Position numbers and translations under genes: made by a program
NCBI GenBank assembly: GCA_946413245.1
Contig: CAMKJS010000034.1
Coordinates: 1-33,305 of the forward strand
Direction of reading: 5' to 3'
Source: an uncultured Clostridia bacterium
Lineage (GTDB): Bacteria > Bacillota > Clostridia > Christensenellales > Aristaeellaceae
Length of the DNA: 33,305 nt
Notes under the pieces: generated by a model
The model's input: the letters and a program-made list of their open reading frames with translations, nothing else
Told to the model about the DNA's origin: nothing
Databases searched by the model: none
Shown: one piece after another, positions 14,836 through 28,060 of the stretch
How positions within the stretch are numbered: the first letter of the stretch is position 1
How the letters are laid out: each line of letters begins with the position of its first letter

Positions 14836-16656
14836 TCACCAGTCAGAATCCCAGTCGGTATCGCCCGCGTCCCAGTCATCGTAGTCAGAGCTGTAACTGT
14901 CCCTGTCCCGTTCCGCCCGCCGGGCCGCCTCCTGTGCCTCCCGCTCAATTCTTATCTCTTCCGCCCGGATCCCGGCCCAGACCGCGGAGGTTTTGAAATC
15001 GGTGGCGTCCCAGTCCGACTCCCAGTCCGTCTGATAGGTTTCGCCCAGCCAGGTATCGGCGGTCTGATCCCGCGCTGGGCTGGAAGCCGATATCCAGCTG
15101 CTGCTGTCGGAGTCGTAGGAATACCACTTGCTCTTGTAATGGTAATAAACGGTATGGTTCTGTTCGTAGTAGCCGTTGACATCGTGCAGATCCGCCCAGA
15201 GCGCTGATTCCTTAAAGCTTGTAAAAGCCCAGGTTTCCTGCCACTCCCGCTGATAATAATTCCCCAGATATTTGATGCGGGCAGCGTTCAGATCCGGTTC
15301 CTCCGCGGATTGCCACAGTTTCTTTTCTCTGTCATAGGAATACCACGGTCCAACCACGTTCCCCGAAAGAATCCCCGGGAGATAAGACTTTTTATCCCGA
15401 CAGTAAACGGTGTCCTCCTGCCTGTAGTATCCGTCTTTCTCATGCTTCAGCGCATAGTATGTCGATTCATTGAAGGGCAGCACGTGTTCGGAAAGCTGAT
15501 CCGATCCCTTCAGGTCCTTCAGGTATTCCAGCTGATCCGCCGGAACGCCGAGTTTGAGGGGACAGGCGCATTCCGCCCAGTCATCCGCTTCCGCGCTGTA
15601 GCTGTACCAGTCATGGGCCAGCCCGGCAAACGTCATGCGGAACCTGTAGTAGACGGCGTCCGTACTCCGGTAATACCCTTCCTTGATCGGGAAGGTCGAA
15701 TAATCAGGCACTCCCCACGCATCCTGCCAGAAAGCTCCCAGATAGGTCTCCGCGCCGTGATAAACAGGCGCGGAAGCCTCTTTCCAGTCCTTCTCCTCCT
15801 CAATATACGCATACCAGCGGGAACCGTCCCGGTAATAAACAGCGGTATCCAGAACAGAAGCCTTCTCCCCGTCGGTCAGGCCGTCCCAATAGGATACCGT
15901 ACGGTAGTAACCGTACTGTGACAGGTAAGTTCTTTCCTCCGGTTGGTAATATCCGTCGTTCAGATGAGTGTTGCTTGCCGCGGAGACGGTGATTTCACCT
16001 GTATGGACGTTATAGGTATAGTACTGGTCGCCGATCTTTCTGCTGTCGTACGTTTTCGGATTCCGGTAAAAAGCTTCTCTCTCCTGCCGGATCACACGCT
16101 GCGTATGAATATACTGTATTGCTCCGCCGCCAGTGTACAAAAGGAGCAGCGCCAGCAGAAATGTCAGGATCTTGTGGGAATGCATCCAGTTCAGGATCGG
16201 GTTTTTATACTTCCGGACAGTCCTCGTTGTCCGGGTCGTCCCACCACCGGAAGTCCCCGGTCCGCCGCCGTCCGGATAGATTCCCCGGTTATGGCATTCC
16301 GAGAGCAGTTTCTCAAAGAGTTCCCGGACCGCGTATGCTTCGTCCGGGCCGTCGTACCGCACCGCCCGGGAACCGTCGGATTTGTTTTTGTAGACGACAA
16401 AACGGTTTTCTCCCGCCTTGTAGATTCCGAAGGCCCTGGCCTCCCGGAAGTCCTCACCGATAAAGAAGCGCATGCGCAGCCGCGGCATCCCGCGCTCCGC
16501 GCAGTATTCCTTCAGTTCCTCAATGGTTTTCGGCTGAAGAATCTTCCGGGGAGGATCCGGAACGTAGTTCTGATTCTGTCCTCCGCATTGCGGGCACGTC
16601 CGCTCGTCCGACCGGACCGTTCCCCCGCAGAAGCTGCATTTTGACGTCGATGCCAT
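14836..16656 (-). CDS. Zinc-ribbon membrane protein with four aromatic repeats
   Basis: I do not recognise a named family for the main part of this 606-residue protein. Residues 7-24 form a zinc ribbon (CSFC...CPQC). Residues about 40-125 are a mixed, probably cytoplasmic domain, then a Gly/Thr-rich linker leads to one membrane helix (about 162-182). The outer 380 residues hold four units starting near 235, 328, 409 and 495. Each unit has GYY, then VYY or VYC, then WYxY with a Trp 5-9 residues on, and often a later YLG...W...W stretch. The tail is Asp/Trp-rich (DWDAGDTDWDSDW). It has its own promoter and is divergent from another zinc-ribbon membrane protein. The topology (N-terminus in) is inferred. 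Confidence 0.8.
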   Translation of the reverse strand: MASTSKCSFCGGTVRSDERTCPQCGGQNQNYVPDPPRKILQPKTIEELKEYCAERGMPRLRMRFFIGEDFREARAFGIYKAGENRFVVYKNKSDGSRAVRYDGPDEAYAVRELFEKLLSECHNRGIYPDGGGPGTSGGGTTRTTRTVRKYKNPILNWMHSHKILTFLLALLLLYTGGGAIQYIHTQRVIRQEREAFYRNPKTYDSRKIGDQYYTYNVHTGEITVSAASNTHLNDGYYQPEERTYLSQYGYYRTVSYWDGLTDGEKASVLDTAVYYRDGSRWYAYIEEEKDWKEASAPVYHGAETYLGAFWQDAWGVPDYSTFPIKEGYYRSTDAVYYRFRMTFAGLAHDWYSYSAEADDWAECACPLKLGVPADQLEYLKDLKGSDQLSEHVLPFNESTYYALKHEKDGYYRQEDTVYCRDKKSYLPGILSGNVVGPWYSYDREKKLWQSAEEPDLNAARIKYLGNYYQREWQETWAFTSFKESALWADLHDVNGYYEQNHTVYYHYKSKWYSYDSDSSSWISASSPARDQTADTWLGETYQTDWESDWDATDFKTSAVWAGIRAEEIRIEREAQEAARRAERDRDSYSSDYDDWDAGDTDWDSDW

Positions 16657-25250: not shown

Positions 25251-25961
25251 TTACTGGTTCTTCAGCCGCTTGTCCAGCTTCGCAGCCAGCCAGGTTCCGA
25301 AGCTCTGGATAATCTGGGTGATGACCACCAGCACGATCACCGCCAGATACAGCACCGCGAACCGGTACCGCTGGTATCCGTAGGCCAGAGCCAGCTTGCC
25401 CAGGCCGCCGCCGCCCACCGCGCCGGACATGGCCGTATATCCCATGATGGTGGTGATGGCCAGCGTAATGTTGGTTACCAGGCTCGGTACGCTCTCCGGC
25501 AGCATCACGTGGGTCACGATCTGCAGGGGAGACGCCCCCATGGACAGCGCCGTCTCGATGATGTTCGGGTTGATTTCCCGCAGGCTGGATTCCACCAGGC
25601 GGGCAATGAAGGGGAACGCCGCCACCGTCAGGGGAACGATGGCCGCCACCGTGCCCACCGAAGTCCCCACGATCACGCGGGTCAGCGGAATGATCATCAC
25701 CATCAGGATGATGAAGGGCACCGAGCGCAGCAGGTTGATCATCACGTTCAGAAAGCTCATAAAGGGCCGGGGAAGAGGCCGGATTCCCTTCTGCTCGCCC
25801 GTCACCAGCAGCACGCCCAGCGGCAGCCCGATAATGACGGCGAACAGCGTGGCCAGCAGCGTGGAATAAACCGTCTCCCATACGGCAAAGGGGAACTCCG
25901 TCAGCAGGCACTGCCAGGCTTCCTGCAGCCGTTCCGGGGTAAACGCGTTGGCGAAATTCAT
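25251..25961 (-). CDS. metI: Methionine ABC transporter permease
   Basis: Inner-membrane permease of 236 residues with about five membrane helices, forming the channel of the MetNIQ methionine importer. The MetI signature is visible as SLREINPNIIETALSMGASPLQIVTHVMLPES (the EAA coupling loop, about residues 133-164) followed by AMSGAVGGGGLGKLALAYGYQRY. The start overlaps the metN stop by 4 nt. The last residues are basic (KLDKRLKNQ). Nothing in it looks altered to match the unusual binding protein encoded upstream. Confidence 0.95.
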   Translation of the reverse strand: MNFANAFTPERLQEAWQCLLTEFPFAVWETVYSTLLATLFAVIIGLPLGVLLVTGEQKGIRPLPRPFMSFLNVMINLLRSVPFIILMVMIIPLTRVIVGTSVGTVAAIVPLTVAAFPFIARLVESSLREINPNIIETALSMGASPLQIVTHVMLPESVPSLVTNITLAITTIMGYTAMSGAVGGGGLGKLALAYGYQRYRFAVLYLAVIVLVVITQIIQSFGTWLAAKLDKRLKNQ

Positions 25962-26986
25962 GCCCTCTCCTCCTTTGCCGCGTATTCAGCTTCCACCTGA
26001 ACCGTGATGTTCGGAATCGTGCTCAGGTAGGCGATCGCCCTGCCGAGATCCTCCGGCGTCCCGGGAATGTCCAGCAGAATATATCCGTATGCCTTGTCTC
26101 CCACCGAGCGGGTGGAAGCGCCGAGAATGCTTGCCAGAATACCGCAGTCCACCGCCATTTTGGCGATCAGCGGCTCCCGGGAGGCGACCGCGCCGTTGAA
26201 GATGACCCGGATGCGCTGGCCGCCTTCGGGGAAGATGGCGTCATTTTCCGGATTCGACGGGTTGATCAGGTTCCGGGTCGCGGCAGCCCGCGGGTTCGCG
26301 AAGACCTCGGCCACCGTTCCTTCCTCGACCACCGTTCCGTTTTCCAGGATGGCCACCTTGTTGCATACTTCCTGCACCACGCTCATCTGATGTGTAATCA
26401 CGATCACGGTGATGCCCAGCTTCTGATTGATGTCCCGGATCAGTTCCAGGATCGCGTGGGTCGTTTTCGGATCCAGCGCGGAGGTCGCCTCGTCGCACAA
26501 CAGCACGTCCGGCTCCGTCACCAGGGCCCGGGCGATCGCCACCCGCTGCTGCTGACCGCCGGACAGCTGCGCGGGATAGGCGTTGGCCTTGTCCGGCAAC
26601 CCAACCAGCTCCAGCAGTTCCCGGGCCTTTTTCTCCGCGGCTTCCCGGTTTCCGCCGCTCAGCTTCAGCGGCAGCATCACGTTCTTCAGGCACGTCCGCT
26701 GCATCAGCAGATTGAACCCCTGGAAGATCATGGTGATCTTCCGCCGCATCGCCCGCAGCTCCTTCGCGGAGAGGGAGCCCATATCCCGGCCGTCCATCAG
26801 TACGCTGCCTTCCGTCGGCCGCTCCAGCATATTGATACAGCGGACCAGGGTACTCTTCCCGGCGCCGCTCATACCGATAATGCCATAGATATCCCCGTTC
26901 TCGATCGTAAGGTTGATCTGCTTCAGGGCGTCCACCCCTCCGTCCGAGGTGGTGAAGTGCTTGGAGAGGTTCCTCAGTTCAATCAT
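25958..26986 (-). CDS. metN: Methionine ABC transporter ATPase
   Basis: ATPase subunit of the methionine importer, 342 residues. Walker A is GMSGAGKST (38-46), the signature is LSGGQQQR from 141, and Walker B ends in Asp165-Glu166. The C-terminal NIL domain (about 262-335, QRIRVIFNGAVASREPLIA onward) is the methionine sensor that causes trans-inhibition in MetN proteins. I set the start at ATG 26986 with GGAGGG upstream; the frame is open further up, but that stretch contains the promoter and terminators. The gene has its own promoter (27018-27047), separated from metQ by strong terminators. Confidence 0.95.
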   Translation of the reverse strand: MIELRNLSKHFTTSDGGVDALKQINLTIENGDIYGIIGMSGAGKSTLVRCINMLERPTEGSVLMDGRDMGSLSAKELRAMRRKITMIFQGFNLLMQRTCLKNVMLPLKLSGGNREAAEKKARELLELVGLPDKANAYPAQLSGGQQQRVAIARALVTEPDVLLCDEATSALDPKTTHAILELIRDINQKLGITVIVITHQMSVVQEVCNKVAILENGTVVEEGTVAEVFANPRAAATRNLINPSNPENDAIFPEGGQRIRVIFNGAVASREPLIAKMAVDCGILASILGASTRSVGDKAYGYILLDIPGTPEDLGRAIAYLSTIPNITVQVEAEYAAKEERA

Positions 26987-27059: not shown

Positions 27060-27094
27060 AAAAAAAGGATATCCGGGCTTCCGCCCGGATATCC
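27060..27094 (-). terminator. Strong terminator between metQ and metN
   Basis: On the minus strand GGATATCCGGGC-GGAA-GCCCGGATATCC, a perfect 12-bp stem, followed by seven Ts (27066-27060). Confidence 0.92.
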
Positions 27095-27229: not shown

Positions 27230-28060
27230 TTACTGCAGTCCCAGCGCCGCCAGGTCAGCCTGCTGGCCCGCATACAGGCCCATGGGCTCGACATGCACGC
27301 CGGCGATGGTCACCAGACGGGTGCCGTTCTGGGCGTTGAAGTCTTCCTGATAGGGAGAATGCGCGAAGAAGTTCGCGAAGGCGTCTCCGTCGTTCACCAT
27401 GGTGTTGGGGGTTACATAGTCGTCCACGATGGTGATTTCCAGGGTGATTTCCTTCTCAGCCAGGATTTCCTTGGCGATGGCCAGCACGTAGGAATGCGGA
27501 TCCAGTGTGCAGATCACCTTGATGGTCTTGCCGGCCAGGGCGGCGTAATCCACGGTAGCGTCAAAGCCGTCGGTGGGATTCTCCACCACGGAGATGGCCT
27601 GTCCTTCATAATTGGAGAAGTAGTCCACAACCTTCTGGCTCAGCACGGCGGCAGCCAGGGCCTTGGCTTCGTCGGAATCCTTGTTCTCTTCGTTCACGCT
27701 CACCACGTTCACATAGGGGGATTCGGCGTTCTCATACAGCAGGGCCTTGTCCAGCTCCGCCGCCAGGGCATAGTTGCCATTGATGATGCCGTAGTCCACG
27801 TCCGCCAGAACGTTGGGCACCATAGCCGCTTCCACTTCCACGAACTCGATTCCCAGCGGGTTCTCTGTAATATCCGCGACCGTCGCGGTAATCCCGGCTT
27901 CTTCCTTCAGCTTCAGCAGACCCTGCGCCTGCAGCAGCAGGAGCGCGCGGCCTTCGTTCGTCGCGTCGTTGGGAACAGCGATCTTGATCCCGTCGGCAAA
28001 CGCGGCGGTCAGAGTCAGAGCCAGAACAGCAGCCAGTACCAGAGCAATCAGTTTCTTCAT
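27230..28060 (-). CDS. metQ: MetQ/NlpA-like methionine-binding protein, circularly permuted
   Basis: The 276-residue product begins with a signal peptide (1-22, cleavage likely after AFA). Residues about 23-159 (DGIKIAVPNDATNEGRALLL, later ITENPLGIEFVEVEAAMVP and SPYVNVVSV) correspond to the C-terminal half of ordinary MetQ. Residues about 178-276 (KTIKVICTLDPHSYVLAIAK, later ANFFAHSPYQEDF and GVHVEPMGLYAG) correspond to the normal N-terminal half. The order is therefore swapped, with an 18-residue linker joining the old ends. Both halves are complete and total length is normal. There is no lipobox cysteine, so it is not a lipoprotein. It lies upstream of metNI but behind terminators. Methionine as ligand is inferred from MetN/MetI linkage. 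The start has AAGGAG about 11 nt upstream. Confidence 0.9.
   Translation of the reverse strand: MKKLIALVLAAVLALTLTAAFADGIKIAVPNDATNEGRALLLLQAQGLLKLKEEAGITATVADITENPLGIEFVEVEAAMVPNVLADVDYGIINGNYALAAELDKALLYENAESPYVNVVSVNEENKDSDEAKALAAAVLSQKVVDYFSNYEGQAISVVENPTDGFDATVDYAALAGKTIKVICTLDPHSYVLAIAKEILAEKEITLEITIVDDYVTPNTMVNDGDAFANFFAHSPYQEDFNAQNGTRLVTIAGVHVEPMGLYAGQQADLAALGLQ

Follow-up and report, generated by a model that had tools for sequence, protein, structure and literature searches.

A putative methionine-binding protein of the MetQ/NlpA family in circularly permuted order, encoded beside metN and metI in an uncultured Clostridia bacterium

The metQ gene found at positions 27230..28060 (-) of the window, i.e. 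the whole stretch of 33,305 nucleotides that was analysed in this work, encodes a product of 276 aa plus stop, which on the evidence of its sequence is a MetQ/NlpA protein in a complete and conserved circular permutation. We consider it very probable that this product is functional and binds methionine for the MetNI ABC importer encoded next to it, and that the permuted order in which it is encoded is stable and inherited.

Order of the two halves and predicted fold

The chain starts with a signal peptide (residues ~1-22; 27995..28060 (-)), which was read by eye and is of the ...TAAFA/DG type without a lipobox cysteine. Next comes the normal C-terminal half of MetQ, placed first (residues 23-159; 27584..27994 (-); AVPNDATNEGRALLLL, IINGNYA, SPYVNV), then a conserved linker between the old C- and N-termini (residues 160-177; 27530..27583 (-); ENPTDGFDATVDYAALAG), and finally the normal N-terminal half, placed second (residues 178-276; 27233..27529 (-); DPHSYVL, DDYVTPN, ANFFAHSPY, HVEPMGLY). 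A preliminary description of this DNA had stated that the two halves are reversed, that the break lies exactly at their normal junction and that about 18 residues bridge the old termini, and all of these statements are borne out by the match to the family profile. The match of the product to PF03180 (203.5 bits in total, cut-off 27 bits) is non-collinear and consists of two reversed stretches, of which the first aligns residues 21-150 with profile positions 94-226 and the second aligns bases 27242-27523 with profile positions 1-94, whereas a normal-order relative serving as control (L199) shows a single stretch, 1-236. The sequence ...GLYAGQQADLAALGLQ forms the new C-terminus and DGIKIAVPND the new N-terminus, as had been claimed, and residues 160-177 correspond exactly to the linker. 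The gene is also a single open frame of normal length, which agrees with the earlier statement that it is complete and neither a fragment nor the result of a frameshift.

No domain other than PF03180 was found in this protein by the Pfam search (E up to 0.001). The scores for all three NCBIfam MetQ/NlpA models are below their cut-offs (139.4/374, 135.3/228.85 and 116.3/487 bits), as is expected of a split match. Searches of the PDB with phmmer and by profile search identified 22 MetQ/NlpA sequences each, and all 22 match the product in two stretches, with the best one at the reversed place (both stretches being printed for three of them); hence, none of these solved members shares the permuted order. 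Since order is ignored in Pfam scoring, permutations of this kind can be hidden by routine annotation.

The AlphaFold2 model of the protein, which was built from 14 close relatives, is compact and has a mean pLDDT of 88.7 (84.4-66.0 for the other four models) and a pTM of 0.82, with values of 86-98 in the blocks around the linker, and based on this model the protein is likely to close into two lobes. In Foldseek searches, MetQ chains were aligned with it over only 80-145 columns (among the 50 rows shown), which is expected of a sequential aligner meeting a permutation. The match of the same model to OpuAC was weak (TM 0.45-0.50, rmsd ~7).

Linkers, gene order and origins

Three kinds can be distinguished among the permuted proteins. 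Of 96 distinct ones, all kinds included, 78 have 18 residues between their half-models, and proteins with this gap, which is that of the window's protein, are referred to here as type A. Among 64 distinct type A stretches of exactly 18 residues, one Gly, one Tyr and the Gly directly before the second half are invariant, and two further positions are occupied by Asp in 95 and 97% of the stretches. The linker of type B is longer and different, and it was found in the window's family, in f31 (L190, L191) and in f58 (L196). Type C comprises two proteins, from Slackia faecicanis DSM 17537 (L139) and a Fournierella bin (L140), with other linkers and gaps of 17 and 16 residues. In all three types the break is near profile position 94, the first pieces starting at 88-99 and the second ending at 92-98 when pieces cut at contig edges are left out. 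The AlphaFold2 model for type B is weaker (pLDDT 75.9, pTM 0.71); the PDB chains that match it best belong to other binding proteins (rmsd 7-9), and the single NlpA-family chain among the 50 rows shown is 3k2d_A, at rank 50 with 11% identity, so that this search does not support the expected fold for type B.

The cluster in the window has the order metQ-metN-metI, with metQ first. The metN gene (25958..26986 (-), start chosen by eye) encodes an ATPase of 342 aa with a C-terminal NIL domain, and metI (25251..25961 (-)), which overlaps metN by 4 bases, encodes a permease of 236 aa. The 243 bases separating metQ from metN contain a terminator-like hairpin (27067..27094 (-)) with a 12 bp stem, 8 G-C pairs and a T7 tail, which could allow more of the binding protein than of the transporter to be produced; terminator-like sites in the region numbered 3 by scan, compared with 2.9 in shuffles, and are thus not in excess. 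Elsewhere in the window, a 606-codon open frame at 14836-16656 (-) is without a Pfam match (E up to 0.001).

In a count of gene neighbours from which loci L001-L024 and L053-L082 were left out, 65 of the 74 distinct type A genes have both metN and metI downstream on the same strand, whereas among 70 distinct normal-order genes they are both upstream in 46 and both downstream in 3; the others, many of them at the edge of a locus, lack one or both within reach. Both type C genes are located downstream of metN-metI, and the 17 type B genes lie ahead of this pair in 12 cases and behind it in 2. In two loci (L046 and L048), the type B permuted gene has directly upstream of it a MetQ-like gene of normal order and high divergence, and each of the two has its own metN-metI, so that two methionine-type importers stand back to back.

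A likely origin of the permuted form would be a tandem duplication of metQ, after which an in-frame fusion joined the copies and the outer halves were lost. Normal metQ genes standing two or three in tandem, an arrangement from which the permutation could arise, are seen in Campylobacter, Streptomyces and Anaerospora (L142-L144 and L148); the long matches to these arrays represent tandem normal-order genes and were excluded from the permuted count.

If this change occurred only once, in an ancestor of types A, B and C, then it was followed by changes in the linker and by shuffling of operons, and to such a single event we assign an even chance. The junction is nearly identical in the three types, and the MetQ tree is compatible with a common origin. 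In this tree, for which the halves were aligned separately and 93 of 160 rows were kept after thinning of near-identical ones, type A forms one clade (support 99). After removal of six long-branch or divergent rows and addition of three type B rows, types A and C are joined with support 83, and AU tests do not reject a single origin for A+B (p-AU 0.485), A+B+C (0.432) or A+L139 (0.605); further, holding A with L139 scored above the freely searched tree, which indicates that the free search was imperfect. However, the linkers of the three types are unrelated, and the location of type A genes, mostly ahead of metN-metI, differs from that of both C genes behind them. The partner transporters also speak against a single event. 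In a tree of MetN+MetI (79 rows kept of at most 112 after similar thinning), the partners of A and of B form separate clades, with support of 100 each, and those of C are placed among normal-order systems; in AU tests with two rows removed, A+C is rejected (p-AU 0.01) and A+B is disfavoured, though not significantly (0.072). These results for the transporters could also be explained by gene exchange between operons.

Anchoring, mechanics and ligand

The protein in the window has no lipobox cysteine, and its signal peptide is probably removed by signal peptidase I; the MetQs of the window's family that were examined, in both orders, are likewise without a lipobox. Among distinct permuted proteins, a lipobox is present by pattern in 42 of the 47 that come from named records, and in 7 of the 49 from the remaining genomes, which are mostly of the window's family. 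Lgt is present in the source genome, with six Lgt-family matches. Despite these six matches, no more than two of the readable SBP_bac_1 proteins of this genome (L221-L245; 25 matches, not all readable) look like lipoproteins, namely L230 and a gene in L234/L244; most have, by eye, a signal of the A-x-A type and no lipobox. Two other kinds of N-terminus were observed, viz. that of a Faecalibacterium prausnitzii permuted MetQ (L118:3845-4774), which has a twin-arginine signal (PF10518), a lipobox and a long tether rich in Ser and Ala, and those of L084 (type A) and L193 (type B), which by eye resemble an uncleaved transmembrane helix and show no signal peptide or lipobox.

Where a lipid anchor is present, it would hold the junction between the lobes instead of the outer end of lobe I. 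With a looser lipobox pattern, which gives at least one false hit (L031), the cysteine is located a median of 4 residues ahead of the first model position in type A (58 of 79 rows) and a median of 13 residues ahead in normal-order MetQ (41 of 72 rows); between the two, the positions used as reference differ by ~2 residues. Given this short distance, and if docking is unchanged, the hinge edge would have to sit near the membrane, at most ~25 Å away. For the MetQ of N. meningitidis, published work shows a requirement for the lipid in full stimulation of the transporter (PMC8416018).

In the type II topology, a cut at the first lobe crossing would leave a single covalent hinge strand, and the hinge or docking mechanics of permuted MetQ may be altered. 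The permutation could, however, also be a frozen accident left by tandem duplication, mechanically neutral in that hinge, anchoring and docking are unaffected, and to this explanation we assign an even chance. The permuted glucose-binding protein TpMglB-2 still binds its ligand and changes shape, and its authors saw no obvious advantage (PMC4990184). Neutrality accords less well with the type A linker being kept in both length and sequence and with the near-common break point across three kinds of linker, although neither of these is proof of an advantage. Taking origins and mechanics together, we put forward, as a possibility and not as the probable course of events, that MetQ underwent two or more independent permutations (types A and B, perhaps also C) with a near-identical junction, one covalent strand of the hinge being opened and the anchor moved to the hinge edge each time; in that case a flytrap with a single hinge strand, anchored at the hinge, would seem to offer a benefit on which selection can act.

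The residues that contact methionine in N. meningitidis MetQ are R156, N213 and N238 together with Y81, F98, H100 and Y103 (PMC6739813). Their counterparts in the window's protein, mapped by motif and spacing and not by structure alignment, are R38, N94/N96 and N118 in the first half and Y215, F232, H234 and Y237 in the second, and they are invariant in all 14 aligned type A proteins (A1). The half that carries R38, N94/N96 and N118, first in the chain, would hold the amino and carboxyl groups of methionine; the conserved linker of ~18 residues follows second, and third the half with Y215/F232/H234/Y237, which would supply the side-chain pocket. In this arrangement the halves would form the familiar flytrap of two lobes, which would bind methionine and dock on MetI while its chain ends lie at the junction between the lobes. 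Comparison of the window's metQ with six relatives gave pN/pS of 0.255-0.488 (0.168-0.483 for the linker alone), and selection on this gene is purifying.

Belonging to the family is not enough to determine the ligand, and it may be asked whether this is a permuted NlpA-family protein for another amino acid or a dipeptide. In favour of this, no Rfam family was detected in the window at gathering score, hence neither a SAM riboswitch nor a T-box, and type B proteins have INGT where type A proteins have INGN, INNN or INSN. We nevertheless regard such a ligand as quite unlikely, in view of the invariance of the contact counterparts noted above, the NIL domain on the partner MetN, and the fact that the permuted gene is the sole PF03180 match in seven near-complete genomes of the genus.

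Distribution among genomes and comparison with known systems

A search for homologues with the same order of halves identified many, in related bacteria of gut and rumen. In the genus, a permuted copy is present in 41 of the 45 genomes searched (source genome included); the exceptions are G014, G032 and G034, which have no PF03180 match, and G042, which has the normal order only. The seven genomes in which it is the only PF03180 match (G001, G002, G019, G023, G035, G038 and G044) are 96-99% complete, and four of them consist of one or two contigs. Outside the genus the permuted form is patchy: in 15 genomes sampled from other genera of the family, 5 have a permuted copy, 9 the normal order only and 1 neither, and none was found in 40 genomes from other families of the order. 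A type A profile (A1), built from 14 permuted proteins, was matched over nearly all of its 280 positions in 108 of 300 genomes of the family, the source genome among them. In the order sample (396 genomes searched with this profile), G512 and G531, both from another family, showed a match, as did 17 other genomes from 9 further families in the class sample (391 searched). When the divergent protein L140 was used to search the phylum sample (299 genomes), only the source genome, G670 and G1081 gave contiguous matches. From the named collection, 80 loci were kept, of which 50 are permuted and 30 are not; as these loci were ranked by similarity to the window's protein, 50/80 does not represent a frequency. 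The permuted loci include, besides the two of type C, those of F. prausnitzii APC923/61-1 (L118) and Oscillibacter sp. ER4 (L100), and also copies in two bins labelled Treponema (L121 and L123), which may be transfers or misbinned.

Although the window comes from a draft genome (134 contigs, 78.6% complete), an assembly or binning join, a frameshift or a degraded gene can be ruled out with near certainty, since the identical half order in more than 100 other genomes, including the four near-complete ones in one or two contigs, shows that no assembly join lies within the gene, which is one open frame of normal length and under purifying selection, its linker included.

What is known of permuted binding proteins stems mostly from engineered examples and a small number of distant natural ones. 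The significance of the present case is that both chain orders occur naturally in one family, in many homologues each with its own transporter, and that carriers of the permuted form include named strains, viz. F. prausnitzii APC923/61-1 and Slackia faecicanis DSM 17537. Homologues in the two orders allow direct tests of how connectivity and anchor position bear on flytrap opening, docking and uptake.

The preliminary description knew of no described case. For MetQ this statement holds, as no report of a permuted member was found among the matches listed from open-licence papers, but permuted binding proteins of other families have been published (PMC4990184, PMC2395249). Thus, natural permutation of binding proteins is already known, and it is for MetQ that it is apparently new. 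The window's protein resembles the known MetQ/NlpA methionine-binding lipoproteins (PF03180; solved members 4ib2, 4yah, 3ir1, 1xs5) in possessing both halves and the ligand-contact positions, in the adjoining metN and metI and in its similar length; it differs from them in that its halves are reversed, the old ends linked, the new ends located at the junction of the halves, and a lipobox lacking. It shares with TpMglB-2 (Tp0684) the character of a natural circular permutation in the binding protein of an ABC importer. TpMglB-2 is a type I glucose-binding protein, designated "Type Ic/Cluster Bc", whose form is found in many Gram-positive bacteria too and is probably tethered in most of them (PMC4990184). 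However, the window's protein shows no sequence match to MglB or other type I binding proteins (Pfam, E up to 0.001), and whereas the permutation in TpMglB-2 adds a fourth lobe crossing, the cut in permuted MetQ should remove one. Circular permutation among two-lobe binding proteins has likewise been reported by CPSARST for glycine betaine- and molybdate-binding proteins, with OpuAC on one side and ProX and the molybdate-binding proteins on the other; their relationship is distant, with <24% identity, and was detected by structure (PMC2395249). The window's protein has no match to the OpuAC Pfam family (PF03180 only), and, unlike those proteins, permuted and normal MetQ are homologues within one Pfam family, whose relationship is detected by sequence.
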